Source: Bryoerythrophyllum caledonicum
Taxonomy: Eukaryota; Streptophyta; Bryopsida; Pottiales; Pottiaceae
DNA: 64,000 bases
Direction: 5' to 3'
NCBI GenBank assembly: GCA_963971425.1
Contig: OZ020516.1
Span: forward strand, 12,140,593 to 12,204,592
Below, in pieces: positions 19,601-52,480 of the stretch. Every line of letters begins with the position of its first letter. Position 1 is the first letter of the stretch. Both the position numbers and the translations under genes were made by a program. The notes under the pieces were generated by a model. The model searched no databases. It was given only the letters and a program-made list of their open reading frames with translations, and was not told the origin of the DNA.

Positions 19601-21757
19601 GGATGGCATATACATGTGAAAGATTAACCACGATTGCAGTGGGTGATTAGTGATTTTAATTATTTGAATGTATGGTGATATGTGCATTGGGGTAGGGATT
19701 TTGTTGATGTTGCCAGGGAATGTATATTTTTTGTGTATTAATGTAAGGAGGCCACCGCGGCCCGGTGTGTATGGTCTCCTTTGTTGCATGCATCTTGTAA
19801 GTGCATGTGTATTGTTAAAGATGAGTTTATAGTCTTGAAATATATTTTGTATATATTTTGTAGATTTTGTGGCGGTTAGTTTTGTTTCTTGTATAACTAT
19901 AAGAGCCGGTGGTGTGTCTATGTTTGCGACTAGAGTTTGTAAGCTAGGAAGGGCAGTGTTTAGTGAGGAGGCATTCCATGTGATTATGTATGTATTTTCT
20001 TGGTTTGGTCTAATGTTTTGATTTTGGTTTTGAGGAGGGATGTAGGGAAGAGGTGGGGGTGGGTGGGTGTATTCTGGTATAGGGTCTAGACATTTTAGTG
20101 ATTCATTTATGAGGTTGTTAGGGATGTAAGGGAATTTTAGTTTTATTATATCATTTGAGGGTGGTATGTTTTGACTATGTAAGAAGTCGTATAGTCTTTT
20201 ATGTATTGAGTTCTCATGGTTTATAATATTTTGGTTGTCTACTAGGAATTCAGTATAGGGGTGTGGAGTGTAAATGTGTCGTTCTGGTGGGTTTTGTAAG
20301 GTTAGTAAGGTTTGTAGGAGTGAATTAGTCCATGTAATTGTGTTCCAATTTTGTAGATTTAGTAGTTGGTTACATTCATCTATGTTTGGATGAGTAGTGA
20401 TTATTAGTGCATATAAGATGTGGGGTGGTGGATGCGTATTTTTTTGTTGTATGTATTGGGCAATGTTTGGGTGGGAAGTGTTGTGTATGTGGTGTAATGT
20501 ATGTGTGTTTTTTAGAAATGGTGCGAAGGGTTTTGCAATGTGTTCATATTCTGGTTGGAGTTTTATGGTATTAGGTATAAAGTAGATTTTGGCATTTTTC
20601 TTATGTGATGTAGGATGTCTTTTTAGTATATTGGGCATGGGTCCCGGGTTGGTTTCAATGTCTCCTCCTAGAAGTAGTAGAAGTTTGTGGTATATATGTT
20701 TGGTGGTGTATTTTAAAGGCTTTGTTGTGTTATTAATGACTTGTTGGTTTGGGGGTAGGTGGGTGTTTGTATTTTGTGTGTAAGTTGTGGGTTTATTTAT
20801 TTTTATAGTAGGTGTAGTTGTTTTCGTTTTTAGTTTATTATTATTTTTTTTCCATGTGTTTTTTGTGGTTGTTTTTGTTTTAGTAGTGTATGGGTGTATA
20901 TATGATTGGTTGTATTTTATCTTGGTTGTTTTTGTCCGTGTGCATATGTAACTATTATGTTTAAGACTATTTGTATGTGGGTTTATGTTGGTTTTTAAAG
21001 TGGCTTTTAAGTTCTTTTTTTCATATGCGGTGTTATTATATACTTTGTGGTTTGTACAATTGTTTGTTTTGGTGTTTGTATTAGTATTTGGTATGAAATA
21101 TGTTTTGTCATTCTTTTTGTGCGAAGCGGGGTGTCTTTTTAATATGTTCGGCATGTGTCTTGGGTTAGTCACCATGTCTCCTCCAATTAATATTAGAAGT
21201 TTGTAGTAGATGGGTTTTTTGTTTTGTTTTAGAATTTTTTGTTTTTGAATGTGACTTTGGTGTTTTTTTGATTGTATGTATTTGTTTTTGTGTGTGTATA
21301 TGTATGTGTTATGATTCCCGCCGGCCTTCTTTGGAGTCCGGCGTTCTTCTCTGCATGTATTACGTTGATGGTGTGTTGTTGTCTTTGTGTGTGTATATGT
21401 TTTTTTATTTGTTTTTATATTAGTATTTATTCGTATGTTCGTATTAGTAGATGCCTCGGTTTTTGTCTCGGTGTTTGTATCAGTATCCTTGTTAGTATTC
21501 GTGTTATAATTTGTACTAGTATACGTACCGATATTGATATTAGTATTTGTATTAGGGTAAGTATCAGAATTTGTATTAGTATACGCAACAGTATACGTAT
21601 CTGTATACGTACCATCATACAGATATTTATACAGATACGTACCATTATACGGAAAAAATATATTGATATTTATTTCAATCGTTGGGAAGGTCGGGTTTGG
21701 GCTCGGGAGAGGTCGCTGCAAAAAGGGAGGTCGCTGCAAAAAGGGAGGTCGCTGCAA
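13610..21757 (-). CDS. LINE polyprotein: 2A motifs, AP endonuclease, RT, MTase-like insert, RNase H, zinc knuckle, PD-(D/E)XK-like domain
   Basis: Residues are numbered from 21757. 1-190: low-complexity N/T/Y-rich, with no Met in frame. About 191-205: degenerate 2A copy (GGDMVTNPRHM). About 363-373: intact 2A motif (GGDIETNPGPM), followed like the first copy by PNILKRHP. About 587-840: AP-type endonuclease (TWNASSLN, IQETKL, CGDFNRD, SDHSPV). About 1100-1450: reverse transcriptase (NKAPGPD, GFRAERST, VDFKNAFGS, YADD at about 1390). About 2000-2100: FNIEHSYFSSP to IIVTPNNNWYQ, resembling an adenine methyltransferase fold. About 2222-2365: RNase H (YTDGSF, RAELMAI, FTDC, GNEQADKLAKEG). About 2490-2512: CPICP...LLKCQNHH zinc knuckle. 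About 2579-2640: KPDILCV, IQFIEFTY, KIDKYQPL, compatible with PD-(D/E)XK. The frame begins with a non-ATG codon; the first in-frame ATG lies inside the degenerate 2A motif. Confidence 0.85.
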   Translation of the reverse strand: MQRPPFLQRPPFLQRPLPSPNPTFPTIEININIFFPYNGTYLYKYLYDGTYTDTYTVAYTNTNSDTYPNTNTNINIGTYTSTNYNTNTNKDTDTNTETKTEASTNTNIRINTNIKTNKKTYTHTKTTTHHQRNTCREERRTPKKAGGNHNTYIYTHKNKYIQSKKHQSHIQKQKILKQNKKPIYYKLLILIGGDMVTNPRHMPNILKRHPASHKKNDKTYFIPNTNTNTKTNNCTNHKVYNNTAYEKKNLKATLKTNINPHTNSLKHNSYICTRTKTTKIKYNQSYIHPYTTKTKTTTKNTWKKNNNKLKTKTTTPTIKINKPTTYTQNTNTHLPPNQQVINNTTKPLKYTTKHIYHKLLLLLGGDIETNPGPMPNILKRHPTSHKKNAKIYFIPNTIKLQPEYEHIAKPFAPFLKNTHTLHHIHNTSHPNIAQYIQQKNTHPPPHILYALIITTHPNIDECNQLLNLQNWNTITWTNSLLQTLLTLQNPPERHIYTPHPYTEFLVDNQNIINHENSIHKRLYDFLHSQNIPPSNDIIKLKFPYIPNNLINESLKCLDPIPEYTHPPPPLPYIPPQNQNQNIRPNQENTYIITWNASSLNTALPSLQTLVANIDTPPALIVIQETKLTATKSTKYIQNIFQDYKLIFNNTHALTRCMQQRRPYTPGRGGLLTLIHKKYTFPGNINKIPTPMHISPYIQIIKITNHPLQSWLIFHMYMPSHPEDTRFLLDIQNTITTHINNHPNHTYLLCGDFNRDIALIGRQNGNHHTPPQNIDYQWRRFTENLNFTYINTDTQFSRQGGYNYSDWSLIDGFYINTNNNTQYTSTTNKDIILNSDHSPVQLHIPNNTLISRTPTIPNKDTIRILNPIPITNIEKFNTKFFEENTVQIDSLINTLGINSQLTQAQWQEACHSLDKLINKISDRLEQTCRAHPIPQMTNRTSQQGGYLPRKLSKTWKQYLTTYHTIRKTIRIVKNNPQWRNHPIHNELLTIQHIQISTPPPPDLPHDTWIKDIAIIAKNANIQARKIITKYTKENIKKAISKYRKLYEISPKKINKKVFKNLESPPMDCIKDQYNNILTSPEDIANEIFNQQTKTNRPTVPTCNYQPQHTIECTCAIRQYPWHDLDGYTLDKRGEPEIPLHKYLNRATYDTCLQNLGNNKAPGPDRIPNSILKNMPPRFHKLLFLFFSHCYKQKQIPNSWKTSATILLYKKGDPSMLPNHRPIALANTIYKLFTSTLTHILSSYGEKFKILHDSQEGFRAERSTARQIQTIIAALEDAKFTNQDIYILYVDFKNAFGSIDHARLLAIMSDLGYPKEATTLVGNIYSQSSTCYIGEHFGKTKPIPIQRGTIQGDTLSPYLFIIFLEPLLRWLERGNNGYTFGTSQVTINSAAYADDLATITNKIKSIQIQLHKIDRYCKWAGMDVGVPKCAATGCPNKSKLNPTTFKALMQTSNINYRNQPIPILHQNEPYIYLGTNLVPSLKWKIQIHTTTTKLIKQCKELTTCPATMKQKIKMVDTVLRPGVAYSFYGVPYSMPTIKKLDKKIIAIQKTICGLPKCMSNAITQLPHNLFGLEAFSLKNAYLRCIGEQLQNALNDKGRLGKIYNGLTHYVLAQYGGAENIPRIKKSDCIRSPITRTFFLLKHIAKAHLKSTLPNFLTNPTTLEILWRQETLNHNTLNAQLSQKLLQKLLSKNIFELNQITLPNGTHIMNNEDFKTYHFTPSKLIKSALSVAKQLFCHITCPTICHTPCNIHPYSHTLKDPFITLNNNIIPRNISTPTNPPNPPHTHHPRPPTYIPKNPTTYPINNIINHKHIQHTDTNNIQNTYTKYLCQWQHNDNTYNKWLPQRDLFPRHDANTSTHNTEKLKQYYQKIQNKIYSDIILAHHPQEQSSDSRSVTPPIIIPLLNIYTTECNPENDICTSSNTIQIDNNQAHLYEENGRHLHTIPITRLQWLWNQYHTKLQSPTNIEPTTQPFETELIWLYQRYKYRIPKTDPLKNAQYTIPTPILDSLISSFNIEHSYFSSPITCPTKLNKFYSPYERDKIFGSLGKAFEHKWIGNGIAYPHNEKDIEQTIHWARLAAKHDPNNTKTIIVTPNNNWYQNNNQHSNPFPDSHIIAVFEADTIPYEEPNIPPELKKPRIEPSTLQILCVHHQNQNLGSLEQLAELTSITDNLDIQRPYTKPAPPTPIQTPVNKSKNWSKLNYDNNTLNYSVIPPPLPDYPTYTTPKFNPAYSYYTDGSFKPPEQISPGSWRREKAGYGIYNSTKEIKLAKRLHGLQNILRAELMAIHKTLQIITTKYKNEPAHIFTDCINALYLLNTQITHPTLHNSHPDQTILTSMVQMLQNRTQITTLHKVRAHANIDGNEQADKLAKEGREKTHKNAKDPHEHAHAIPYYFQKEDWPSKEDTPDKGPIRFLGKYLKKQDLYNNLDTISENIPNIEKWTNNNDIDNELSTNFWKNPIISDSQITCLIKFRTGQYMGNARKQLFFGIERFPSITCPICPSTDPDTWLHVLLKCQNHHIHSLIVKRHNKAVWEVRKLITSYNKSRCFILMNAGTFNSNPQENTVPPWLLPCSCMTQRCHCNARLKPDILCVKGLPYNDPPPENINQDYTIQFIEFTYCNDRFSSETIQNKIDKYQPLIDDIIALGWNVDPFIVITSGARATTFIPSMKTLEDTFKIPIDTIKTTFKNINTIAIQHAMSILLHKRKIENNQVLPDRQDPP

Positions 21758-29525: not shown

Positions 29526-30300
29526 GCAATTACTTATCCGTTTGGCGCCCAATTCATATTTCTACAAAATCAATATATGTGTTCATTTTTTCTTTGAATT
29601 AACTTTGATGGAAAAGTAATGCCTAATTTTAGAATTTATCAATACAAAATTGAAATCAAATTATGACTCAAACTTTGGGGAGATTTACACAACATCTAAC
29701 GATTGATGGAATAAATTATGGTATTTAAAGTTACCAAATAATGGTAACGAAAATTGTGAACTTTGGAGGGTATGTTACTTTAATTCATCAATAGATTCTT
29801 GCAAGATTTTTTTACTTTGAATAAAAGAGATTAACCTGTAAACTAAGCTAGTAGCTTTGCAATGACATATCATATGTCTACTTTTGTCTACTTAATTGTA
29901 TACAAAAATGTTCCAAACTTATATACATTAAAAGGGAAGTTTTGTATTTGACAAGAGAGATTTTTAATTACAAAACAATGAAGAATCTCTTGAAGACAAT
30001 TTTCAATCAAATTTTAAGACCAAAATTATATTGCATGTGAATGAAATACAACATAGTATGTGGTATGGTATTCAATGTGTTTTATTGTATTTTATGTATT
30101 TTGTGTTGATTTCTTAGTTTTTCCATGGGTTCTATTACTGCAAATCATACTCTGATTTTTGCAAAGTGTTCATGTAATATGTGCACAAATATGAACTTCA
30201 AATTTCACAACCTAATTTGTCATGGATTTCATATAGATTGAGATTTAACACCTCCAAAGTCCACATTAGGGTCTTGTGGCTCCAAAGGATTATCTAGGGA
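29526..30300 (+). repeat. Dispersed repeat R1, uninterrupted copy (empty site)
   Basis: About 0.77 kb is homologous to 42020-42180 joined to 50868-51480. It runs across the point where the 8.7-kb DNA transposon sits in that other copy, with AATTATGGTATTTAAAG here. It therefore gives the pre-insertion structure. Non-coding, AT-rich. Confidence 0.85.
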
Positions 30301-34850: not shown

Positions 34851-35814
34851 GTTCTACAGCGTAACCCGTACTCTAGGTCAGACTGCTACACTCTCCTCAT
34901 CAACTTGTCTTATTCTATACCTTGTGCAGTTCTATCACGATGCGGTGTGGTGTGTGTAGAATCTCTTCTACGAGTATTTATAGAACTGTAAGCCACCACC
35001 GGTAGATCAAATCAGAAACGCGCATTTTTCAATTTCAATCAGCTTATTGATGAAATCCCGACCTAACACGTTGTACTGGTCTGTTGTTTTCTTTGCCACC
35101 CTCAGGCTTTACAAGAATCGGTGGGCATTTCCAGATACCCAGCCGAAGACACAAGCTGCTGTAGAAGGGTTTCGTATGTATCATGTACAAGGGGCGTGCG
35201 ATTTGACCTGCCCTGTGTATTAGCTCCCCCTCAATTAGTCCACATGATCATGTAAATTGTTGAGACAATTTTGACATCACTGGCCTCTCTCTAAATTATT
35301 ATCTCTCCTGTTCCACCCCTCTCTCTACTGTTCGGATGCGCTTTAAATGCGGTGATTTTAACACTTTTAAATCATAACTTTCACTGTACCCAGGAGCTGG
35401 TGAAAGTGAAAAAGCCGCACCTGGTGACTTTCCGTATATAGATGTGGGCGAGCGAAGCGCACTGTTGCTTCACGATGATCCGCCTGCTGATCGTCACATG
35501 GCTGCGCGCCACTGTCAGGTTCGCATTTAGCCGACCTCGTCGCGCTCCTCCCTCCGCCAACCCGCTCTAGGGCACGGCAGTCTTGCGCACACTCGCCTGC
35601 AACCATGTTAGAGAGACAATCCTGTGAGGGAATGGTGAGAAGGTGGGCGTTTTGATTTGGGCTGTGGGTGACTTGGGGTTTAGTCGTTGGAGGGAGATTT
35701 GTGGGTTCGAGATGGACGCGTTCATCCTTGGTGTCTGCGAGGTGTGGGATTGTGCGATTGAGTGTTGGGCATTCTAGTTTTGGGAGCTTGTGGATCGAAT
35801 CGGCTGCTTCAGCG
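34851..35814. other. DRB 3' region and extensin-gene promoter
   Basis: Non-coding spacer of about 960 bp. A frame running into the next gene from 35668 lacks a signal-peptide start and I treat that part as leader. Confidence 0.5.
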
Positions 35815-36582
35815 ATGGACGAGAGAACGAGCATTCGCGACGTTATGACAATGTACCTGATTCTCGCCTTCTTCGCGATCTTCTGCCTTCCTGGGGCGGT
35901 GCAAGGATCTCACCTTGAAGCGCGCGTTGCAGATGTGAGTCCGCCGCCGAATCCTTACTGGCTAGAGAATTTGCCTCCGTTCGCCCCACCTCCTGCTTAC
36001 TGGAATCCGGGGCCTTCACCTCCTTCGCCTCCGCCACCATCGCCTCCGCCGCCATCGCCTCCGCCACCATCGCCTCCGCCACCATCGCCTCCGCCACCAT
36101 CGCCTCCGCCACCATCGCCTCCGCCGCCATCGCCTCCGCCGCCTTCGCCTCCGCCACCTTCACCTCCGCCACCTTCACCGCCTCCTCCTTCACCGCCGCC
36201 TCCTTCTCCACCGCCTCCTTCACGTCCTCCTCCTTCTCCGTCGCCGCCCTCTGTTGCGCTACCACACTCGCCTCCTCCTGTCGATCCTCCTGAGAGCCCT
36301 TCTTACATCGAGCCTCCGGCACCGCCATCGCTGCCTCCTTCCGCGTCCCCTCCCTCGGTGATCGTACTACCTCCGCGGCCGCCGGCAGGTTCGCAAACTC
36401 CGCCGGGGGCGCAGGCGCGCGTGTGGAACGAATCGGAGAAGGCTGGGGTGGTGATAGTGGCGCTCGCCGCGCTGTTGCAAGTGCTGGTGGTGATCTACCT
36501 GCTCTTCAAGCGGCGCCAAATGCTGGGGATGGTGGAGGAGGACGACAACCCTAATTCCAATCACGGCTTCCATTCCGCATGA
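35815..36582 (+). CDS. Proline-rich extensin-like membrane protein
   Basis: Intronless, 255 residues from the ATG at 35815. An N-terminal hydrophobic stretch (YLILAFFAIFCLPGAVQG) serves as signal peptide. Residues about 60-145 are tandem Ser-Pro4 units (16 or so), the extensin hydroxylation and arabinosylation motif, followed by a looser Pro/Ser-rich part. A transmembrane helix (about 208-228, VVIVALAALLQVLVVIYLLF) and a short KRR-flanked acidic cytoplasmic tail end the protein. It is thus a wall-embedded ectodomain anchored in the plasma membrane, like the front half of a proline-rich receptor kinase but without a kinase. I chose the 35815 start because the signal peptide follows closely; an upstream in-frame start at 35668 would bury it. 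Confidence 0.8.
   Translation: MDERTSIRDVMTMYLILAFFAIFCLPGAVQGSHLEARVADVSPPPNPYWLENLPPFAPPPAYWNPGPSPPSPPPPSPPPPSPPPPSPPPPSPPPPSPPPPSPPPPSPPPPSPPPPSPPPPSPPPPSPPPPSPPPPSRPPPSPSPPSVALPHSPPPVDPPESPSYIEPPAPPSLPPSASPPSVIVLPPRPPAGSQTPPGAQARVWNESEKAGVVIVALAALLQVLVVIYLLFKRRQMLGMVEEDDNPNSNHGFHSA
36000..36235 (+). repeat. 15-bp coding tandem repeat (Ser-Pro4)
   Basis: About sixteen copies of a unit such as CCATCGCCTCCGCCA. Synonymous variation increases toward the 3' end, suggesting recent expansion of the 5' units. Confidence 0.9.
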
Positions 36583-37928: not shown

Positions 37929-39053
37929 CTATGACGTTTTCCTAAAGATATTTCTGTACCCGCTCCCAACGCAGGTGAGGATGACGGTGCCAGTGCTGGG
38001 ATCAGGCTTGATGCTGAACTGCACACCTAAGATCTGCTTGATGTGTCTCAACGTGAGAATGGCGTGCGGCGACAGCTTACCGACCCTCACCTTGGAGACG
38101 TCCTCGGGGCACAAGGCGCACAGGATGAACAGCAAGCTCTGGTGCGTGGAGTCCACCACGCCGCCCTCCTTGATCTCCTCCAGCAGCTGCATCGCGGCGC
38201 GGCTGCCGATGTCCTCCGGCAGCAGCGGCGGCGCGGCCTTCTCCTCGTCGTCGTCTCCCGCGGAGGGGGCGGTGGCGCCTTCCGCGCTGATGAGGCACCC
38301 GCTTGTCGTCTCGGCGACCAGGCTAACGCCGTAGCCGGGGGAGTTTCCAGCCTCCGGCCCGGACGCGTGGTCCGTGAACACGTACACGTCCGGCAGGAAC
38401 GCGTTGAGCACCCCGCGCGCCGCGTCCACCATGCGGTTCGACATCTGCGGCGAAACCCTAGCGGAGTACGCCACTCCACGCACGCGCTTCACCATGCCCT
38501 CGTCCATCCAGGTGACGGCCGTCAGGCTCGTCGCCACGATCGGGACCTTAACCCTAACCTCGCCTCCGCCGAGGGGCGGCGCGCCTCGGCGCACAACCTT
38601 GAGCTCCAAGCTCTCCGTCGCCACGCCGAAGTGCTTCAAGATAGGCAGGGTGGCCGTCCGGAACGTGTCCATGCTCGGATCCTTCCCCCCATTCGTAATC
38701 CCCCGCAGCACCGCGCTCAGCGGCTTCTTCCCGAACAGCCCGAGCACGAGAACCGCCTCCAGAAAGTAGCCGATAGGCCGCCCCGCGCCGCACTCGTGCG
38801 TGAGCTCACGGTGGCCGGTGAGAATCCCGGGCTTGTAGCGCAGCTTCGTCCCCGTCTCGTTGATCTCCACGGAGCAGCCATTGGACAGCTTCTCCAGGAG
38901 GCGCAGGAACGACGCCTCGTGGTCTCGCAGGCCCGGGCGCGACGAGCCCGCGCGGATGTCATCGATGCGCAGCGGCGTGCCGGCCAGCGTCGCCAGCAGC
39001 AACCGCTGCCGGAAGTGCTGCGCTCCCCGCAGCTTGATCACGTCGTGCCCCAT
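37929..39053 (-). CDS. RCL1: RNA 3'-terminal phosphate cyclase-like protein (rRNA processing)
   Basis: Intronless, 374 residues, ATG at 39053. Conserved RCL1/RTC-fold blocks are FRQRLLLATLAGTPLRIDDI near the N-terminus, SFLRLLEKLSNG, ECGAGRPIGYFLEA, NGGKDPSMDTFRTATLPILK, and SRMVD-like SNRMVDAARG with VYVFTDH and SPGYGVSLVAETTSG. RCL1 is the nucleolar, catalytically inactive cyclase relative that works with Bms1 in early pre-18S rRNA cleavage. Length matches the family (about 370). The gene is GC-rich relative to its neighbours, and long shadow frames occur on both strands because of this. A telo-box-like motif lies about 55 bp upstream. Confidence 0.92.
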   Translation of the reverse strand: MGHDVIKLRGAQHFRQRLLLATLAGTPLRIDDIRAGSSRPGLRDHEASFLRLLEKLSNGCSVEINETGTKLRYKPGILTGHRELTHECGAGRPIGYFLEAVLVLGLFGKKPLSAVLRGITNGGKDPSMDTFRTATLPILKHFGVATESLELKVVRRGAPPLGGGEVRVKVPIVATSLTAVTWMDEGMVKRVRGVAYSARVSPQMSNRMVDAARGVLNAFLPDVYVFTDHASGPEAGNSPGYGVSLVAETTSGCLISAEGATAPSAGDDDEEKAAPPLLPEDIGSRAAMQLLEEIKEGGVVDSTHQSLLFILCALCPEDVSKVRVGKLSPHAILTLRHIKQILGVQFSIKPDPSTGTVILTCVGSGYRNIFRKTS

Positions 39054-40228: not shown

Positions 40229-41160
40229 TTAACCCCTAAAGGACCTGAGTCTCCTTCGGGGGGATTTCTGATTTTGGGCAGGTTCCTTAAATTCGAAAAA
40301 AAATCCTTTTTCTCTGAAATTTTTATTCTAGATCCCCTCTGATAAGAGCTTCGTGGACATATTTTTATTTTATTTTTTGGATTTGTGGTTTGAAAGTTAG
40401 TACCACTTAAAGCCAAAAGTGGGGACACCGGGCACCTCCAAAAATTTTGACAAAAGTTTCTATTGACATTGAGATTTTTCACACATATAAAGAATATTTC
40501 CTTTTTTGGAAATTTTCCTAAAAAAGTCTTGTCTTTAGTGTAAAAAGGCATTTTATTCCAAGTCAAACATTTTCACACATTGTCGGGCAACGGGGGAAAA
40601 AAACTTCATCTCTTCTAATAAACCTAGAGATCTTCATATTTTTCACTTTTTATTTTTTCAACAACAATATGTGGTGAAAAACTTCTTATTGACCGTTTGG
40701 ATTATCATTTGAATACATATGTAGTTCACAAAAAAATAAAACGTGAAATGGCAATTTTTGAACCTCCACTCCTTGCACACTTGTTTTGAATATGCTACAC
40801 CCCTTTTTTACCTCTAAAAATTGGTGTGTTGGGAAATAACATCATGCTTAAGACAATGGTAAAATATTTAGACCTTGTACAATGCAAAAATTTGATACAA
40901 AGTGAAGTCAAAGTCTGCTGATCTACTCAACGCTGGGAAGAAAATGAACCATTGTTTTGACTTTAAACACTAAAATCTATCAATCCGTGCGGTGGATTGC
41001 AACCAAAATTTAATGGCATGTTAATATATAATGTTTTTTTAAGATCTTACGGTTGAAAATCCAATATTCACTTTAAAATGTGATTTTCATGTCTCTTTTT
41101 GGCAGTGGCAGTTTTGGACTGGTTTTAGAGCGAAAGTGGTCGTGGTCCTTTAGGGGTTAA
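40229..41160 (-). mobile_element. piggyBac-like MITE, family A, complete copy, 932 bp
   Basis: Left end TTAACCCCTAAAGGACC, right end GGTCCTTTAGGGGTTAA: a 17-bp perfect terminal inverted repeat including the TTAA duplications. Family copies are at 2550 and 45072. No coding capacity; a 122-codon minus-strand frame at 40198-40566 has no features. Confidence 0.75.
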
Positions 41161-41990
41161 ACGACCCAATTTGTTGTTTGGGGATGGACATATTTCATAT
41201 TGCATTTATTGATGCTACGGTGCATGTGTCCATGATTATATGGGGCACCTGTTACGGGCAACAATAGAGGTGGGAAGTCATGGAACTTGTCCTCCGGAAG
41301 AGACCCGCTTATAAGCTACCACATCTCTTGTGAGGCCCTCGTGGACGGGCCTTGTCCTATACATAACATTTTAGATGAAGTGCTAGGATAGCTTTCCATT
41401 TGAGAATCTATGAGGAGGATTCTTAAATGAGCTTAGAACCATTTGAACCAAACTAGAAGATCTTAACAAAAATGAAGCGAGTGACCATCTAACTAAAAGA
41501 GGTCAACAACAATGAAGCAAGTGGTCATTAAACTACAAGAGGTTAACAAAAATGAAGCAAGTGGCCATCAAATTGAGGTGGAGCAACCCATAACAAATAC
41601 TTTCAGCCTAATGGGGTCTAAAATGACATTGTATGTGAAAAAAAATTATGTAGAAAAATGATGAATTAAGAATGAAACTCAACAAACATTTTTTCATACT
41701 TAATCTCAAATATCCCAAATTAATATACAATTTAAAAGCCCAAAATCCCCCAAAGCCCATAGTTGTACTGTAGAGTATGTGGTACTTGTCATGAGTTGGG
41801 TCAAATTTGTGGCCTCCTTTGCCCAATGCTACACTAAAAATCTGTGGTAAATACAAATGTACCACTACAAATACTGTAATACCCAATAGTGGTACAAATA
41901 ATGTATTTACCCAATACACTATTTGTGAATTAGTAAACAATTAGTGTTAGCTGCCACTATCAATAATGATACCCCAATCAATTGCCTAAC
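41161..41990. other. non-coding region with a partial CACTACAC-family element
   Basis: 41161-41760 shows a short direct repetition of a segment containing AATGAAGC and AAGTGG (41471-41575), otherwise nothing. 41780-41985 is homologous to 30350-30470 (AGTGGTACAA, CCCAATACAC, CAATTAGT), a truncated CACTACAC-family copy. Confidence 0.5.
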
Positions 41991-42180
41991 TCTTAACCCT
42001 TTACCATCCATGGATATTTTTGGAAAAACCAAGATTTTTGCAGATTTTTTTCTTTGAACTGGATTTGATGGAAATACAATGCCTAATACTCAAATCTAAC
42101 CTTACAAAATTGAACTTAACCCATGAACTAAACTTTGGGGAAATTTTGCACAACATCCAACGGTTGATGGCATAGATTAT
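41991..42180 (+). repeat. Dispersed repeat R1, left half (interrupted by the DNA transposon)
   Basis: It matches 29580-29727 through GATGGNATARATTAT. The homology resumes at 50868 after the transposon. Confidence 0.8.
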
Positions 42181-42213
42181 AAACACGCAATTAAGCAATT
42201 ATGCACTTGGCCA
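42181..42213 (+). repeat. left terminal inverted repeat, 33 bp
   Basis: Matches the reverse complement of 50833-50865 with one mismatch (G/A at 42210). Ends in GGCCA. Confidence 0.9.
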
Positions 42214-42753
42214 TTTAAAAGTGCACTTGGGTACGGCGGCGGCCATTGCGAACAAAAGTGGCAAAATTGGAAAAAAAAAAAAAAAATCAAAGAAAAAAAA
42301 TGTGTCTAAAGGAAAAAAAATTGAGCTTCTGCAACAATATTACGTACAATCATGGTTGTTCATATTGGAAGCAATTTTTTGGCATTTTCAACTAATTTGT
42401 GGTGGCCCCTCGTTAATACTAGATAAATGTGTATTTAATATAGTTTCACAATATTTCAAAGATAGATTTGAAGGATTGTAGTATATAAACAGGCGTAATT
42501 ACAAAAAACCATACTTTATACAAGGGTTGGTAGTTGATTAAAAGATATTCTACGTAGTACATAATGCATACAATGGTGAAAACTAAATATAGCTGCTTCA
42601 ACAATTGGACTTAGCACCAATAGTAAACACAACTTTACTCTAAAGGATTAATGACATAACGTCTTACATCACCCTTAGAATATACTACTCTTACACATAC
42701 ACTATATATCAATTACCATACACAACTAGTATACTCTCAAAAAGGCACACTAT

Positions 42754-45071
42754 CTACTCCATAGAATTTAGGGCTGCTTGCAAACGGTCGTCATCCATAG
42801 CTTCGGTTTGCATTGCAATATATTGTAGGATGTGAGCCTTTGCCGATTGAAGAATGCGAATCCTGCTTTCAACCTGCGCTCCAAATACATTGCGCTTTCT
42901 CCACCCGCCGGCCCCTGACATGGTTCTTTCCGGAGAGTCTGCCCATGAAAAAATGCATGCATCTTTCTCTACCCACCTATGGCTCTCCCCAGATGGCTCC
43001 CAGATTGAGTCCATGCAATTAGCATACCGCTGTGCAGAAGACCCATGTCCATCAACAACCCCCCTTTGGATGTTGGGCCAATACCAACAAACCTTAATCT
43101 TAAATCTCCATCGATTTTTTCCTTCCTCAATCACTTTCCCTACATAGAATGGTACACCGCCTTCTATTTCTGCTCTATCAACACTCAAGGCTACAAATTG
43201 TCCACAACAGATATCAGATTGTGGATTAAATGGTGGAAATGGGTCGTGATTATTTTCATACATTGCTCCTTCTTCGGCTCTTTCCTCAACATAGTTGCGC
43301 TCTGTTCGTTGTGCCCTGCGTAATGCTTGATTAGAGGGTCTTTCTCTACGAGGACCAAAATATCCTCGAGCCTCGGCATTTGGAAGCATAGCCACTACCT
43401 GCTCTACGACATTTACCTCGCGATTTTCTTCACTTGCACCATCCATTACATCCAAAGATGCACTCCCTATAGGTCCGGTATTCGAGAACTCTGAAGGCCA
43501 AAACGGTGAGGTACGATGCTCATTGCTACGATCTTTGAGTGGAAATTGAGCTAAATAGAGTTTCAATCTTTCAGCCTCTACTTTTGCCTCACAATTCTTG
43601 TCCTCATGCTGCAACCTTTGAATGCACCTTTGTTTATATGCAATGAAGTCATCCAACGCCTTCAACTCCCGTTCGTCCGCTGCAAATACTTCCGCAAACG
43701 ATGGTCGCTCATCCCTATTTGGCAACGACCTCAAAGTTTTCGTCCCTGCCTCCGGTCCCCATGGATCCTTGCAATAATGCTTGTGTTGTACTCGAACCTC
43801 ACGAGTCCCTTCCCGATTGTCCATATAGAATCGCATGTGGTGCGGAAATGTTATGCCCACCAATGAATCCTGACCTGTCAGTAAGTGAGGAGTTATGAAC
43901 AATTTCCAATGCCATACATTCTCTAGCAGCCGAGCGCTAACAAATGCCTCTGTAGGAGATGTTCTTTGTTCTATAAGACTAATCATTTCCTTCAACGAGT
44001 CGACGTCCGACCTCTTTAACGTATTTGATATACAATTGAAGCGTTGATCAATATCTTCGTGGGTATGGCCCACTATAAGAAAAGATAGTTCCACCTCCTG
44101 GAAAAACCCCAATCCCACCAATGTAGCACATAGAGCAAACATATAAATGTTTTTGTTCTCACGCGTGCAGTTGTTGGCCTGAATTTGCAATGTTGGTGGC
44201 AAAAAGCCCTTCCTCCGCAGCACATCCCCAATGACGTGCAACAATGTACTCACGACTTGATTGCTATCGTGTTTGTGGTGAGCCCCAAACCATACGTCGC
44301 AATATAAACCAATCCCATGTACAAGAGCACCACACAGATGGGTCTTCACAAACCGGTGCTCAATGTTCTTCACAGTCTGACGCATCCTCGGTACCATGGT
44401 CGTGTTTTGGTCCATGCCATCCACTATGATGCACATGTACAACTCAGGGCTAATGTAACACGACCTCTTGAATATCCAATAATGCCTACGTTCTTCCATC
44501 TGGTTGCGCAGATGCAACATAAACAACTCCTTTATCTTTATCCTTGCATCCGCATTGGTGGTTCCCTCCATGGCACATTTATACTCCCAACAATGATAAC
44601 ACTTTGAGAATCTCGAGAATGGAGGTACCTGAACGTGGGGATACTTGATGCGCCACATCCTCCGGAACGAACTCATAGAAATGGTTTCCCCATTACAAAT
44701 TCTCTTGACCTCCTCGTTCACGTAATTGAATACATCAAATTTGGCTGTATTCATAGGAAGGAGAATAAGAGGCACCACTTCGTTGTCACTCTTACAGCGA
44801 ATACAACGATGAGGTTGAGGACAACCAGCTTCATCGACAAACGATTTAAAGCAAGCCTCTGCTGCAGACATTCTACTACTCTCTCTTATCGGATTTGAAA
44901 GGATATTGCCGTGAATCGATGTCACTCTTCCATATATTAGACAATCCTTCTTCAATTGCTTAAAGCGCCTCTGTGAATATCCAACCCCAAGAGCGTAGCA
45001 AGCATTGCAAACTTCTTTCCCATCTAACTTTGTTACAAACTTGTCTCGACGAGTTCCTTCTGTCCTTGTGT
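42754..45071 (-). CDS. GHTHEDID-family protein, putative transposase (5' end lost)
   Basis: The frame is open from the MITE junction at 45071 to the stop at 42754 (about 770 codons). It contains VCNACYALGVGYSQRR near the truncated start, Cys/His pairs (CIRCK, CYHCWEYKC), IIVDGMDQN at about a third of its length, QIQANNCTRENKN and FLIVGHTHEDIDQRFN. From memory these blocks mark a eukaryotic family found near transposons (I believe Pfam DUF7869, unverified). Spacing of D, D/N and E/D is compatible with an RNase H-fold DDE nuclease. The middle block usually has D where this copy has N (QANN), possibly a catalytic loss. The C-terminal third is hydrophilic. Divergent from the two plus-strand genes of the same element. 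The first in-frame ATG (about 44871) would omit conserved sequence, so the true start was upstream. Confidence 0.65.
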
Positions 45072-45861
45072 ACGGATTGAAAGATTATAATGTTTGAAGT
45101 AGAGAAAATGTTCATTTTCTTCCCTGCGTTTATTGGATCAGCAGACTTTGACTTCAATTTGTGTCAAATTTTTGCACTAAAAAAGGTCTCAATAAATTAC
45201 CATAATGTTAGGCATGATGTTAGTTCCTAACAAACCAAATTTCAGAGGTAGATAAGGAGTGTAGCATATTCAAAAAAATTGCGCAATGAGTGGAGGTTTA
45301 AAAAATCTCAATTCGCGTTATATTTTTTTGTGCATTTGATATTGTTTTAAATGAGAATCCAAATGGTCAATAAGGTGGGTTACAACACATAATGCGGTAG
45401 GAAAAATCAAAAGCAAATGATATGAAGATCTCAAAGTTTTATGTGGAAATGTAGAAGTTTTTTTGGTACCTTGGCCGAAAATGTGTGACAATGTGTGAAA
45501 ATGATTGACTTGGATTAATATGCTATTTCACCAAAACTAAAAGGATCATGCTTAACACGTTGATATTGGATTTAGATCTTGTGGAGTGCAAAAATTTGAC
45601 ACGAAGTGAAGTCAAAGTCTTTTGATCTAGTAAACATAGGGAATAAAATGAACCATTTGTTTTGTTTCAAACACTATAATCTTTCGATCCGGGTGGTCAA
45701 AGTTGATGGAATTTTGTGAATGGGTTATTTAACAAGTTTTAATTTAGATCCTACGGTCAAAAGTAGAGATAAAAATTGATGTTTTTTTCTTTTATACATT
45801 GCACTAGAACCAAGGATTTTGAAGTTTATTTTTGAAATCGTCACCGTACCTTTGGGGTTAA
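45072..45861. mobile_element. piggyBac-like MITE, family A, head-to-head foldback copy inserted in the transposon
   Basis: 45072-45500 matches family A in plus orientation from CGGATTGAAAG onward. 45545-45861 matches it in minus orientation and ends at TTAA (45858-45861) with TTTGGGGTTAA. The two halves form a long imperfect inverted repeat. The left terminus is absent and the junction truncates the minus-strand coding frame. Confidence 0.65.
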
Positions 45862-46322
45862 ACATGATGTTCGTTATTTGTTCATTCATTTTTTCAAGTA
45901 CATGAAGGGTGTTTAATGGAAGAGAAGTAGTACTGAATGGGAATTTAGGGTTGGAGATGGAAGTGGATTAATTTTTCAATAGTTGGTCTTCTATAAAAAT
46001 GAACTTTGAAGTGTTTCTAGAAGGATTTAGATAATTCATTTTGTTGCTTAACATATTAAACTTTCAAATTATCCATAGTATTGGTTCTACGTACACAAAT
46101 TTTTGCAAATAGGAAAAAAGTGTAATATATTAAAACAATTGTCCCTAAAATCAAGGTCTTACCCTAAATCAATATACATTTTCTATTCATGTGAAATGAT
46201 CATCTATTAATGTAATTGTCATGCCTTTGTGAAAAAAATTTATATATGAAAGAAGAATCTTATTCCATACTAATAGTGACTATCGTTTTGTAATGATATA
46301 CAGGTTTTTTGAGTCTTGCGTT
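45862..46322 (+). promoter_or_regulatory. intergenic/promoter region of the divergent transposon genes
   Basis: AT-rich, 460 bp, no frames with protein features. A possible splice acceptor (GATATACAG at 46295-46303) lies just before the plus-strand start. Exact promoter elements are not recognisable. Confidence 0.4.
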
Positions 46323-47039
46323 ATGGCACCACCAAATATTGATAGAATCTCGGAAAGCCACGGCTGGTGGATCGCGGAAGCGGATGAGTCGAGCGCCTTC
46401 TTATGGGTGACAGATTATCCCTTTGAGTTGGGGAAGCGTAAATCGGCGTTGGGGAAGAGTTTTGGCAAAATCCAGGCAATCACTCTTCGACGTGATGATA
46501 TGGTATACGTTACTTGCGCAGTGGGTCTAGGTCAATCGGAGGTGAAGACTTCTCTTTCGAAGAAGTTGCTTCTTGCACCTGTCCCTTTGAATCTCCTTCA
46601 AAATCCAGGTCAGGTGAAATTCCTCAAATCATTGCAGACGTTTTGGTTGAACATCTCTCTTGCAGTACGTACCGCTAGACACAACAACGTCTTAGCCTGT
46701 TTAGCGTTATCACCGGAGATGGTGCTGAAGGCTAAGAAGATTATGGAGGAACATATTAGATATGAAGCATTTCGGGAGAGGGACCCATCACGTGCGACAA
46801 CTCAAGTCCCACCAGCGGAACCAGAAGAAACAGAAGTTTATCGAATTCTTGCTGAGCTGTTGCAACTGGATTGGCGACCACTGGAGGGGGGGAGAGGAAG
46901 TGGAGGCCAACATCCCACCACAACTTCTGAGGTACAGACATTACCGAATCCTCCATTAACGAGTAGACGTCCTACGAAGAGGCCACGACGTGTTGACAGT
47001 GATGTAGCTTCTGGTTCAAGAGAAGGCCGACTAGTTTGA
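46323..47039 (+). CDS. Transposon-borne protein of unknown function (frame 1 of plus strand)
   Basis: 238 residues from the ATG at 46323 (MAPPNIDRISES). The frame continues ten codons upstream without features, so I prefer 46323. A globular N-terminal half (GWWIAEADES, then VTCAVGLGQSE and SLQTFWLNISLAVRTA) is followed by a Glu-rich, then Pro/Thr/Arg-rich tail with a likely nuclear signal (RRPTKRPRR). I do not recognise the family. It ends 37 nt inside the open region of the next frame (open from 47003), which is -1 relative to it. The two may be separate genes, a frameshift fusion, or one gene broken by a 1-nt indel. I found no canonical slippery heptamer and no splice pair preserving frame. 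Confidence 0.6.
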   Translation: MAPPNIDRISESHGWWIAEADESSAFLWVTDYPFELGKRKSALGKSFGKIQAITLRRDDMVYVTCAVGLGQSEVKTSLSKKLLLAPVPLNLLQNPGQVKFLKSLQTFWLNISLAVRTARHNNVLACLALSPEMVLKAKKIMEEHIRYEAFRERDPSRATTQVPPAEPEETEVYRILAELLQLDWRPLEGGRGSGGQHPTTTSEVQTLPNPPLTSRRPTKRPRRVDSDVASGSREGRLV

Positions 47040-47173
47040 ATCCAAGTGGGAGGAGGTTGATTGGGAGAAGTGCAAGATCGGGTGGCAGGATTCCTAGGTC
47101 GGGGCTCAGGACGTCTGATGGTCATCATAGGGCCCCTACATCTACACCGGGAGATTCAGCTGATTTGTCAGCC

Positions 47174-50100
47174 ATGGCGCCGGAGGAAGAAGATTTTCAC
47201 AACCTTCCAGACAATATACCAGAGGATTTTGAAGACAATGCGGAGATACCACAGGATGTTCCAACTCCTATGAATTTAAAAGCACCAGTGCCTACAACAG
47301 AGGAGATTGCGAAAGGATCAGTGTGGGGGAATTTTGTGTTTAAGGCACACATAGACCGCATTGTCTCTGTAGAGAATCCGGAAACCAACCACCGGGTTTT
47401 ATCACAGAAGAGGGTCAGAGAAGTATTCAACCACTTACGAGACCCAGAATCCGCGACTCGGGTGAGTAGATTGGTACTTCGACCGATCAGATACATCGTG
47501 CATACTACCACCAATGATAGTGTCGTTGAGAAGGAAGAGCTGCCATTTCCGTTGGTAGGTACCGCACGAGAGTTTGAGCACATGTTCATTGTACACGGGA
47601 GTGCTTCTGCACAGGGTGCTATGGGATCCCAGTATTCTTGGCTTCAAGATCATATCATTTGGGAACCGGTGGATGGGCAACACATAGTAGCAGCTTGTAA
47701 GTTTGCACAGCAGCAGTGGAGAGATGGTACTATGCCTTTAAACGAGTATCTGGACACGTTTGAGCGGCGGGAGGCCTCTTTTGTGGTGTTTGATGATCGT
47801 CGCTTTTACATTGAGAAGTCTGCGCGGATCAACGTGGCGGAGTTCCAGAGACATTCATATTCTACCATGGAGCAGGATTTGAGGAAGATCCGTCAGATTT
47901 GGGATCTATACGGGAGGCCTGATAGCACACTACGTGCGGACGATGCACGCAGGGCAGTTGCTTTGGTGAGTGCGGCAAGTGCAGTGCATAAGTTGCCCAA
48001 GGGGGATGGAGTTGTCACGGTGAAGAGGTTGGCCAAAAACATGGAGGATCTGACCAATCATGCATGGAATCCGAGCAATGACTGCTTCGAAGCTATCATT
48101 CAAGTATGCAAGGACTACGAAGACGGCATTCTCTTTTACAGCAAGGAGGAAGAGGACAAGTGGAAGGACATGGCGAGGAAGAAAGAGCTGGATCCAAATG
48201 TGGACGTACGACCAACAAGAAAGGAGATGACGCAGAATTGGTTGAGGCCTCTAGGTAGGGTTCCGAATCCATATTATCTTCGGTTGGCAAAGTCTGCTGC
48301 AGCGAAGCCGGTGAGGGAGGATGGAGTAAGACCTTCTCAAGCATATTACTTCGACGGTGTAAAAGACAAGAATCCACATCCTCGTACGATTGCCGGTGTG
48401 GTTGACCGATATCAGAGACGAGAAGCTGTGATGAATTCGATCCGTTGGTTGATGGTGGAGAACAAGGAAAGTACACCTGATTCCATGGAAGAGTTCTTTC
48501 GTATCCGTGTAGCGAAGTATTTTCCGAGGAGTAGTGCACAACTTGATACCTTTGGGAAGCTTTTGAATGCTGCCACGAAAAAAGCTTGGAGTGCTCCTAT
48601 ACGGAGGAAGGTGTCTAAACTGGAAGACATAGGCTACCTCATCCCCCCTTCCATCAGGTTTCATTATGGTGACATTGCAGCAGGGGGGCGTAGATACATT
48701 GGACTGTCCGTGGATGTGGGAGAATTGGCTACTGCTAATTGGGAATGGCAGATGGAAGTCAAGAGGCGAGGGCAGAGCGACACAGAGAATCTTCTTCCGG
48801 TTCGGTGTAGAAGAGGATTATTCCGCACCGACTACATAGAGTTGGGGAAACCATGTTTGTGGGTGATTGATTGTCGACGTGGTAGTGAGAGGCATGGAGA
48901 TGGTCATTGGGGAGACGCCCAATTATCCGCAGCTTTTGCACAGCTGACATTATGGATGGCAAATATTGAACGATGGAACGTCATCTTCTTGTTACCAGCG
49001 GCTGTGTTTGCCAATGAGGAGTTTTTCACGAAGGTGAAGCTTCCAGAGGGATGTACTATGCGACGTGGATGCTGGGCTTTTGATCCCAACTCGGTTAATC
49101 CCTATGCTCTTGATTTTACAGAGAATGGGCGTCTGGAGCAAGTAGTACAACCGATTGGCGATGTTGTGATTTGTATGCAACACCTTGTGGGTACATCTCC
49201 TGGCCCGAACTATGTTTCTGGAGACGTTCCACTTCCACTTGTATTCTTGGATCACTGGAGTGAGGCACGCCAACCCTCTGAAGTTGATTCACTTGAGAGA
49301 TCTCCATTAGAGCTCGCAAGACTAGTGGGCTCATACTTGCCCCGTGGTTGGGGTTTAGTGGCGTGTAACATATCTACGGCCATTCCCACGATCCTTGAAG
49401 GAGATTTCCAGGGATCTGAGGTTTTCATCATTGACGATTGTACAGACAGAGTTTCATTCCTGTACAATGAGTTGTCCGACAATTTCCAAGGACAACTGTT
49501 GGTCAGGACTGGTGGAACAAGTACTGGTTGCAACATCGTACCTAAGACCGAAGATGCGGTTGGTGGAGTGAGGAATGAAGAGGACAATGAGGATGGAGGT
49601 GGTTTACATGAGAGATTGCCACGTTCAGGTACCACTGAAGATTTTTCATCTGGCAGTGATTCAGACGCCGATGAGGATGGAGAGAGAATTCCATCAACAC
49701 AGCGGACGGTGGGAGATACTTCAGGGGCGACGTCTGCAACACCTACAGAGAGGATGCAAGATACAGGTGTAGTAGATGTTAGATTGGCGGCAGGGGCACG
49801 ACGGGGGCGTACATTTGATGGTCCTAGGTTGGAGATGGAGGAAGAAGGATTGGATTCATGTGAATTTTTTTCGGTGCAGAGGAGGATTCGACAGCCTTCG
49901 ATGCCTCCTCAATCAGAGCCTATATCGGAGACACAAGAGACATTCGGAGGTACTCAGAGTGATACCGGACCAGGTTTGCCTCCCGTTCCAAGATCTAGCG
50001 TATCCGAGGACATCATTACATTTCAGGGGGCCTTCTCATCAGAGCGAGAGATGTCCTTCAATGCAAAGGATGGCTTTTTCTATAATGATGACAGGGTAAG

Positions 50101-50266
50101 GCATACGCGGGAGGGTATTCCTGGCAATTACCGATTTGTTGAGTGTGCATCCATTGGCATCGAAGATATGGGAGATCGTCCAGTGGAGGATCATGAACTA
50201 TCCGCTATGGTAGGTAGCGCCATTGGACACGTGGAGGGAGTCGTTCCGCCAGCAGATGAGCTGTGA
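47174..50266 (+). CDS. Large transposon protein: ParB-like domain and degenerate beta-class methyltransferase-like fold
   Basis: 1,030 residues from the first ATG (47174); the frame is open from 47003. At about 58-180, HIDRIVSVENP and WEPVDGQHIVAACKFA have the order of a ParB/Srx-type domain (substrate-proximal I-x-P, then G-H/R-x2-A-A). About 200-540 is helical and charged. At about 555-760, LWVIDCRRG, WNVIFLLP, RSPLELARLVGS, GLVACNIS and EVFIIDD follow the beta-class amino-methyltransferase order IV-X-I-II, but DPPY and FxGxG are not conserved. The rest (about 800-1030) is acidic, low-complexity. ParB-methyltransferase fusions are known from phages and bacteria; this call is a fold-level inference. 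No stops across 3.1 kb suggests selection until recently. Confidence 0.55.
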   Translation: MAPEEEDFHNLPDNIPEDFEDNAEIPQDVPTPMNLKAPVPTTEEIAKGSVWGNFVFKAHIDRIVSVENPETNHRVLSQKRVREVFNHLRDPESATRVSRLVLRPIRYIVHTTTNDSVVEKEELPFPLVGTAREFEHMFIVHGSASAQGAMGSQYSWLQDHIIWEPVDGQHIVAACKFAQQQWRDGTMPLNEYLDTFERREASFVVFDDRRFYIEKSARINVAEFQRHSYSTMEQDLRKIRQIWDLYGRPDSTLRADDARRAVALVSAASAVHKLPKGDGVVTVKRLAKNMEDLTNHAWNPSNDCFEAIIQVCKDYEDGILFYSKEEEDKWKDMARKKELDPNVDVRPTRKEMTQNWLRPLGRVPNPYYLRLAKSAAAKPVREDGVRPSQAYYFDGVKDKNPHPRTIAGVVDRYQRREAVMNSIRWLMVENKESTPDSMEEFFRIRVAKYFPRSSAQLDTFGKLLNAATKKAWSAPIRRKVSKLEDIGYLIPPSIRFHYGDIAAGGRRYIGLSVDVGELATANWEWQMEVKRRGQSDTENLLPVRCRRGLFRTDYIELGKPCLWVIDCRRGSERHGDGHWGDAQLSAAFAQLTLWMANIERWNVIFLLPAAVFANEEFFTKVKLPEGCTMRRGCWAFDPNSVNPYALDFTENGRLEQVVQPIGDVVICMQHLVGTSPGPNYVSGDVPLPLVFLDHWSEARQPSEVDSLERSPLELARLVGSYLPRGWGLVACNISTAIPTILEGDFQGSEVFIIDDCTDRVSFLYNELSDNFQGQLLVRTGGTSTGCNIVPKTEDAVGGVRNEEDNEDGGGLHERLPRSGTTEDFSSGSDSDADEDGERIPSTQRTVGDTSGATSATPTERMQDTGVVDVRLAAGARRGRTFDGPRLEMEEEGLDSCEFFSVQRRIRQPSMPPQSEPISETQETFGGTQSDTGPGLPPVPRSSVSEDIITFQGAFSSEREMSFNAKDGFFYNDDRVRHTREGIPGNYRFVECASIGIEDMGDRPVEDHELSAMVGSAIGHVEGVVPPADEL

Positions 50267-50832
50267 GCCGTGGAGCTATATACTATAGTAGAGCATGCAC
50301 GCAGTTTAGGTGGCAAATACGTTAGTATTATGCAGTTTGAGATGTGTCTATCGTTCGGTTGGTGGTATATATTTATATATTGGGTGGTCCATATGATATG
50401 TTTGATTTTAGAATTCCTCAGCAATAGTGTGGAATTGCTTGATTATGTATGTTTTTGCATTATAAAATACAGTGAGGTACTTTACACTGTCTTAGGAATT
50501 TGCATATATATTTTTGTATCTCTTACACATTGTGTTTGTAGTGCAGTACTCTAAAATCCTATAATAACTCATAACACATTTATAATCTCTTTGGGCACAT
50601 GATCATAATTTTGTAGCATGATTTGCAAACTAGAGTAGAAATCATATATTTTCTAAAAAAAGGTAGCGAATGTAAAAAATATATTACTGATATGAACATA
50701 AAGATGCCAATGTATGATACGACAAACACCAAAAAAATTTCACTAAAAACATACTAAAATTTTGCCAAATTTTGATTTAAAAAAAAGTTATGAGCAAATA
50801 ACTTGCGGCTTTCTACCACCAACCAGTGCACT
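50267..50832. other. 3' region of the transposon
   Basis: AT-rich non-coding sequence between the plus-strand stop and the right terminal repeat. No frames with protein features. Confidence 0.45.
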
Positions 50833-50865
50833 TGGCTAAGTGCATAATTGCTTAATTGCGTGTTT
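50833..50865 (-). repeat. right terminal inverted repeat, 33 bp
   Basis: Reverse complement of 42181-42213 with one mismatch. Flanked outside by ATAGTG and then repeat R1. Confidence 0.9.
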
Positions 50866-50867
50866 AT

Positions 50868-51480
50868 AGTGTTTAAACTTACCGTATATTGGTAGTGAAA
50901 CCTATGGATTTTGGAGGGTGTAATACTTTAACCATCGATAGATTCTTGCAAGAGTTCTTTTACTTTGAATTAGAGTTGTTCACATGTGCACTAGGTTGAT
51001 AGCTTTGCATTGACATATCATATGTGAAGAAAATATTTATACACAATTACTGGTGATTTTTTAACTTTTTTCTACTTGATTGTATACAAAAATGTTCCAA
51101 CCTTATACGAATTGAAACGGAAGTTTTGTATGTGAGGAGAGAGATCAACAATTACAAAACAATGAAAACTGTCTTAAAGACAAAGTTCAATCAAAATTTA
51201 AAACCAAAATCAATGTGCATGTGTGTGAAATTCAACATAATATGTGGAATAGTATTCGCTGTATTCAATGTATTTTAGTGTATTTGATGTATTTTGTGTT
51301 GTATTCCTTGCTTTTCAAAGAGTTCTATAAATTCCAAATTATGATATGATTGTTGGAGAGTGTTCATGTAATGTGTGCGCAATCTGAACCACATATCTTG
51401 AAGCCAAATTCCTAATGGATTTCATGCAAATTGGATTTCAGCACCTCCAAAGTCCCATTTTGGGTTTTTTGGTGGTAAAG
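50868..51480 (+). repeat. Dispersed repeat R1, right half
   Basis: It continues the homology to 29728-30290, sharing GATTCTTGCAAGA and TATACAAAAATGTTCCAA. Confidence 0.8.
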
Positions 51481-51689
51481 GATTAATTCTTATCAGCGAG
51501 CATGTGCTTCTCCTCACGTGAAACTTTCAAATTGCCACGACTAACTCAATTTTTGTCCAAATCAAGCAAATAAGGTGTTTTTTGACATCTACATTTTCTG
51601 TAAACGTCAAAAACCACCTCATATGCCCAATTCGGATAGAGTATAAGTTGCGGTCTTCAGAAGATTGCATATAAGATACTCTGACATCT

Positions 51690-52480
51690 CTCAACTTCTG
51701 GACCATTTATTTTTTAGTTTCTTCTACTATTCAGATACTAAACGTGCACAAGTGAAAAAATATATTTTGCAATCTTGACTGGAATTGGCAAATAGTGTAG
51801 TAGTTGGCATTTAGTGTATTGTTTTGTCACTACACTAAATTTGATGTTTAGTGTAGTGGTACAAATAGTGTAGTCACCCCACTACACTAATTGTCAATAA
51901 GTTGAGGATTAGTCTCAAATTGCCACATTACGAATAGGTCACCAACTTCATTAATATGGGCATCTTTACCTCTATTGGGGCCTACCCTCATTTGATATTC
52001 AACCAGCTGTGGATATTCAAATGCCATTAACTCACTCCTATATTGTATGAATTGGACATATGAGGTGTTTTTTGGCATCTACACTTTTCATAGATGTTAA
52101 AAAACACCTCATATGTCCAATTCGGACAAAATTTGAGTGACTTATGACCTTCAAAAGGTTGCATAAATGTTTACAGCACAGTGGACCAACAATATTCCTG
52201 CACTTTTGTTTCCCACTTTTACTAAAATTTCAGATCTCTATACTAAATGCCAAGAAGTCAAAAAAAATTGTTCCAAATTTTACTAGAGTTTGCAAATAGT
52301 GTAGGAGTTGACAATTAGTGTGCCACATTATCATTGCACTAAATGCAAAGTTTGCAAAAAGTGTCCTAGTTTGCATTTAGTGTCTCCTACACTAAACATC
52401 AAAGATAGAGGACACTAATTGCCGAGTTTGCAAGTAGTTATTTAGTGCCCACTACACTAAATGAGATTTGTAGTGTAGTA
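51690..52480. repeat. CACTACAC-family elements, clustered and rearranged
   Basis: Multiple CACTACACTAAA/TTTAGTGTAGTG motifs (51830, 51855, 51882, 52450) separate segments homologous to 30333-30659. At least two partial copies are juxtaposed. No coding capacity. Confidence 0.6.
52049..52123. repeat. 25-bp perfect-stem hairpin
   Basis: The left arm begins GAATTGGACATATGAGG and its exact complement ends at 52123, with a 25-nt loop. A related segment (CACCTCATATGCCCAATTC) occurs at 51611-51630. Confidence 0.8.

Follow-up and report, generated by a model that had tools for sequence, protein, structure and literature searches.

A Probable DNA Transposon with a DUF7869 Gene and a Large Partner Gene, Present as a Damaged Copy in Bryoerythrophyllum caledonicum

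Introduction

Among large eukaryotic DNA transposons with a long accessory gene, one described system is Sola1-1_Ec32 of Ectocarpus, which encodes on the opposite strand a 1104-aa protein with ParB-like and DNA-methyltransferase parts (PMC12477816, in the sections consulted). According to the same sections, nested insertions and pseudogenized transposases are frequent in the giant transposons of Ectocarpus, and accessory proteins of the ParB-methyltransferase type have so far been noted among algae of the brown, red and green groups (PMC12477816). The superfamilies of Repbase are enumerated in the part of PMC4455052 at hand. Here we present a stretch of Bryoerythrophyllum caledonicum DNA (contig OZ020516.1) at positions 42181-50865 of the 64-kb stretch that was analysed as a whole, hereafter the window. 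It is probably a cut-and-paste DNA transposon bearing a presumed DUF7869 transposase and a large, putatively ParB/methyltransferase-like partner, in a copy that is dead. A preliminary description, made from the DNA letters alone, had considered proteins of its GHTHEDID type to lack a well-described element; in agreement, no paper naming DUF7869 or any of six spellings of the GHTHEDID-type motif was found in the open literature searched. No other description of such an element came up in the consulted part of PMC5890265 and in further literature listings.

Element Boundaries and Empty Site

The stretch is a bounded insertion with inverted ends, and the repeat that it interrupts is also present in the window in an uninterrupted copy. 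The features concerned are the following:

42181..50865, no strand: inserted element of 8685 bp with the symmetric ends AAACACG...CGTGTTT (from the inverted ends and the empty-site alignment)
42178..42213, plus strand: left terminal inverted repeat, flanking TATA included, complementary to 50833-50868 at 35/36 nt
50833..50868, minus strand: right terminal inverted repeat, flanking TATA included, pairing with the left arm
42179..42180 (AT) or 42178-42181 (TATA), no strand: target duplication, left copy (shared direct repeat TTATA, register of 8687 bases)
50866..50867 (AT) or 50865-50868 (TATA), no strand: right copy of the target duplication (same direct repeat and register)
29556..30292, plus strand: uninterrupted copy of the target repeat, representing the empty site, with the join near 29719 (blastn and pairwise alignment)

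Each terminal arm is 36 nt long, a length that includes the palindromic flank TATA, and the two arms differ by one mismatch. As a control, 200,000 inverted 36-mer pairs were drawn at random from the window and the top score among them was 26 matches. The 16-mer AAACACGCAATTAAGC is exact at both ends of the element and occurs nowhere else in the window even at up to 3 mismatches, a search which is weak taken alone, as 23 of 100 shuffles also gave at least 2 matches at 3 mismatches. Only one element with these ends is found within the window. In viral contigs, the exact 16-mer of the ends was met at seven loci, which were rejected because the adjoining bases, compared by eye, are unlike the element ends.

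Joining of the flanks (41000-42180 and 50869-52300) produced a single blastn alignment across the junction to 29586-30292 (E-value = 4e-135, 74% identity), compared with E-values of 1e-24 and 5e-106 for each flank alone, and in the pairwise alignment the joined flanks extend over 29556-30292. Scanning of excised lengths from 8680 to 8695 gave 8687 as the best (score 104), followed by 8688 (score 103). Since the direct repeat TTATA stands at both ends, duplications of 2 and 4 bp are inseparable from one copy, and the element is either 8685 bp long with an AT duplication (ends AAACACG/CGTGTTT) or 8683 bp long with a TATA duplication (ends AACACG/CGTGTT).

These results bear out most of what the preliminary description had said of the boundaries, namely inverted termini with one mismatch (given there as 33 bp), a clean interruption of a dispersed repeat whose empty site lies in the same window and a 2-4-bp AT-rich target duplication. 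The subterminal repeats that it mentioned are real, TGCACTTGG being present at 42202, 42222 and 50827, and yet they are slight as a signal, with one further occurrence in the window at 22533.

The DUF7869 Gene

The minus strand of the element carries one long gene, which is broken at a nested repeat:

42754..45069, minus strand: N-terminally truncated DUF7869 gene, presumed DD(E/D)-type transposase (Pfam PF25273, relatives, residue counts)
45072..45861, no strand: nested repeat where the DUF7869 gene is broken off, in pieces that partly form an inverted pair, with relatives at 40534-41053 and 2550-3147 (blastn and pairwise alignments)

Read from 45069, the frame reaches its stop at 42754 and encodes 771 aa without internal stop. 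This is the GHTHEDID-type protein that had been recognized inside the element from its motif, and the HMM search assigns it to DUF7869 (PF25273, E-value = 3.4e-48, 164.2 bits against a curated cut-off of 26). Protein search led to 57 relatives (clusters at 90% identity), the searches for this protein and for the partner described below having scored the 8000 best candidates only. Three of the 57 are named, namely two Branchiostoma proteins and one of the ostracod Darwinula, and the others are nameless or listed as 'hypothetical protein'.

Five of the best six relatives measure 1062-1066 aa. The sixth, P0014, could be taken for a copy with the same truncation, an idea that was rejected since P0014 begins at a Met that lies inside the full-length protein. 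The window protein aligns with P0012 from residue 286 onward (86%), so that approximately 285 N-terminal residues are absent, and a search of the window with the first 290 residues of P0012, P0015 and P0017 brought up nothing credible (best E-value = 0.34, at 54 kb). The frame stops at the nested repeat, and a deletion or rearrangement there would be the simplest cause of the truncation. The same nested sequence constitutes a second dispersed repeat of the window, being found inside the element (45072-45861) and outside it at 40534-41053 and 2550-3147.

Residue conservation was studied in an alignment (A4) of the window protein with 54 of the 57 relatives, giving 55 rows; P0051, P0052 and P0066 were left out, as they had no listed DUF7869 domain. 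The domain match is present in all 55 rows. Numbered as in P0012, position D509 holds Asp in all 51 rows that have a residue there (four gaps) and D512 in 50 of 51. D591 is Asp in 51/55, being replaced by Asn in the window, P0032, P0036 and P0050. D631 and D633 are each Asp in 51 of 52 rows (three gaps), while H627 and H629 are found in 52/52. The distance from D509 to D591 is 82 positions and that from D591 to D631/D633 is 40/42; together with the GHTHEDID block, this spacing is presumably within expectation for a DD(E/D) transposase. Judging from this residue pattern, the DUF7869 protein is most likely a transposase of the DD(E/D) type. Pfam transposase models gave no match with the window's DUF7869 protein, and comparison of all 55 rows with Pfam returned a single weak ZSWIM RNaseH-like match in one row (E-value = 0.074).

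In a quick tree of the 55 rows the window groups with P0012, P0013, P0014 and P0018, at a support of 89 without star. Starred sets comprise eight rows or more, and the deeper part is unreliable because of long branches. Apart from these relatives, distant DUF7869 matches were observed in two contigs labelled as Bacteroidetes metagenome-assembled genomes (L020, 2767-3432, 26% identity; L021, 5475-6257, 24% identity). No partner-like frame was seen there by eye, no search for one having been made, and our guess is that both loci represent eukaryotic contamination.

The Plus-Strand Partner Gene

The partner gene is divergent from the DUF7869 gene and consists of two parts:

46323..47036, plus strand: 5' part of the partner gene from a conserved MAP start (P0001 residues 3-251; stop-free)
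47027..50266, plus strand: 3' part past the frameshift (P0001 residues 235-1327; carrying the IWEPVDGQHIVAAC and WVIDCRR blocks)

The plus-strand frames 46293-47039 and 47036-50266 form one gene for a protein of approximately 1330 residues, because P0001 (1327 aa), P0003 and P0007 span both. The frameshift lies at about 47020-47040 and the conserved MAP start at 46323. In view of these spanning relatives a set of three independent genes was rejected, and the 'three frames' of the preliminary description reduce to two divergent genes. Its term 'complete element' has to be abandoned as well, as the transposase-like gene is without ~285 N-terminal residues and a near-invariant Asp and the partner is frameshifted. 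Fourteen relatives of the partner were found, all of them unannotated (candidates ranked by shared words), and in seven of these, of 1271-1488 aa, the gene is a single frame (P0001, P0003-P0007 and P0009). No relative of P0001, A1 or A3 was found in viral contigs.

In the partner alignment, a strongly conserved IWEPVDGQHxVxAC block was seen by eye after an NHRxLS...LRPI stretch, an order which we take to be that of ParB-like domains, with DGQH presumably corresponding to their core motif. DGQH is present in 13 of the 14 relatives, the exception being a 584-aa protein. The C-terminal part contains a WVIDCRR ... LERSPxELxRLV...GWGLV...VIDD stretch (also by eye), which in our view resembles the end of an N4/N6 methyltransferase, minus the catalytic motif. 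By motif only, the partner may be described as a putative accessory protein with a ParB-like and a degenerate methyltransferase-like part.

Proposed Mechanism and Points Against It

We propose that a cut-and-paste transposon entered one copy of the dispersed repeat, which would have generated the 2- or 4-bp AT-rich target duplication. The DUF7869 protein would bind the ~36-nt ends via N-terminal parts which, by eye, contain cysteines and resemble a helix-turn-helix, and would cut DNA with a predicted triad of Asp residues, one each from DGMDQ, QADN and GHTHEDID, on an RNase H-like fold. It would thereby excise the element and join it to an AT-rich target with a stagger of 2 or 4 bp. The partner protein may bind the DNA of the element, and may either help transposition or shield the element from silencing. 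The window copy is dead by itself, because its transposase is truncated and altered from Asp to Asn and its partner is frameshifted, and it would be mobile only with enzyme supplied by another copy. Taken as a whole, the stretch is likely to be a genuine copy, now dead, from a transposon group of which little has been described.

Several results weigh against this proposal. DNA with DUF7869 and partner genes adjacent was not seen outside the window, and PDB sequences gave no match with the DUF7869 alignment at E-values up to 10. Concerning the partner, models of Pfam, PHROG and NCBIfam match at most one of the 15 family members (best E-values 0.002, 0.0018 and 0.0091) and the window's own partner protein has no match in any of them. 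The DPPY-type catalytic motif of N4/N6 DNA methyltransferases is found in none of the 14 relatives. Compared over its whole length with nine phage ParB-methyltransferases, the partner reached P = 0.11. In a comparison by parts, the score of the ParB-like part against the phage proteins was reached in 11 of 40 column shuffles and that of the methyltransferase-like part in 2 of 40, and pairing the methyltransferase-like part off target with phage ParB was equally good (1/40 shuffles). The positive control, phage ParB with SopB of F, touched a plausible region and was not significant; hence the profile comparison counts neither for nor against the ParB/methyltransferase reading. Additionally, the translated plasmid search with the partner had no match, the translated phage searches returned one and four weak records, none annotated as ParB or methyltransferase, and the PDB search with the partner gave chance matches only.

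A wider and tentative proposal, which we hold with clearly less confidence than the one above, would be that DUF7869 forms the catalytic core in a DNA transposon superfamily found across eukaryotes and so far undescribed, characterized by inverted ends of ~35 nt and a short AT-rich duplication. One branch of it would have as DNA-binding partner a large descendant of a ParB-methyltransferase, its chemistry lost, perhaps with an anti-silencing role.

Alternative Explanations

A possible explanation, to which we give about as much weight as to the wider proposal, is that the element belongs to a named superfamily that Pfam has not yet tied to DUF7869, with Sola1 as the best candidate. Sola1 is characterized by a 4-bp target duplication; TATA, one of the two duplications that fit here, agrees with this, and AT fits the locus too. 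The large size and the putative opposite-strand ParB-methyltransferase partner recall the arrangement of Ectocarpus Sola1-1, but the methyltransferase of Ectocarpus is predicted to be active, whereas its catalytic motif is lacking in all 14 relatives of the partner described here. AT-rich duplications of 4 bp (AWWT) also occur in three families of the Sola2 type, although TATA misfits AWWT and the 36-nt ends exceed the 12-13 bp of those families (PMC3627910, in the part at hand).

It is unlikely that the roles are swapped, with the large plus-strand protein as the transposase and the DUF7869 protein as an accessory factor. The partner is longer and better kept, Asp, Glu, Arg and Trp are invariant at many places in it, and the activity of DUF7869 is itself putative. 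However, as far as seen DUF7869 is the wider family, with 57 relatives (the three named ones all animals) against 14, and it is DUF7869 that carries the DD(E/D)-like pattern of near-invariant acids.

Equally improbable in our opinion is a non-autonomous element that captured two cellular genes in the manner of Pack-MULEs, in which case neither protein would move the element. Damage to both genes would suit such an origin, as would the observation of these ends on a damaged copy only, and the consulted sections of PMC12477816 describe Ectocarpus transposon families with only transposase-unlike genes. On the other hand, relatives of DUF7869 are numerous, and the change from Asp to Asn recurs in 3 of 54 (P0032, P0036 and P0050), as decaying mobile copies might show.

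Finally, a chance inverted repeat or an assembly artefact can practically be dismissed even though the element was seen in one copy only, given ends that match at 35/36 against a best of 26 among 200,000 random pairs and an empty site that fits within a base.

Other Features of the Window

Outside the element, a LINE-type frame of 2715 aa (13610-21757, minus strand) contains endonuclease and reverse transcriptase domains, and has the 2A-like motif GGDIETNPGP in its N-terminal part. It also matches PCIF1_WW at residues 1958-2092 (E-value = 5.3e-10), which we take to be a family of cap-specific m6Am methyltransferase. An RNA 3'-terminal phosphate cyclase-like gene is located at 37929-39053 (minus strand) as a single unbroken frame (PF01137, E-value = 7e-60). 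The frame at 35668-36582 (plus strand) contains a long SPPPPSPPPP repeat, has no Pfam match at E 0.01, and is presumably similar to the hydroxyproline-rich cell-wall proteins of green algae.

Comparison with Known Systems

The proposed transposon resembles Sola1-1_Ec32 in its large size and in encoding, on the opposite strand, an accessory protein of more than 1000 residues with putative ParB-like and DNA-methyltransferase parts; nested insertions and damaged transposases are noted for giant elements of Ectocarpus (PMC12477816, in the sections consulted). It differs in length (8.7 kb here, 21.5 kb in Ectocarpus; PMC12477816, same sections), and the likeness of the two is one of description. 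The DPPY-type motif, absent from all 14 relatives of the partner, separates them further. With the phage ParB-methyltransferase fusions the partner has in common the order of its putative parts, ParB-like and then methyltransferase-like by motif reading, but it differs from them in having neither significant profile similarity nor a DPPY-type motif. Should the partner prove to be a degenerate ParB-methyltransferase, the class of such accessory proteins noted so far in transposons of algae would become wider.

Concerning cut-and-paste transposons of the DD(E/D) type, the inverted ends, the short duplication and the near-invariant acids, with a spacing that we assume to be fitting, are alike, whereas the window protein differs from them in matching no Pfam transposase model. 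DUF7869 (PF25273) stands in Pfam as a domain of unknown function; here its gene lies between defined ends, in an element whose empty site is at hand. The family can thus be placed in an element of known limits, together with the ends, the target site and a partner gene, which opens a transposase role of DUF7869 to direct test.

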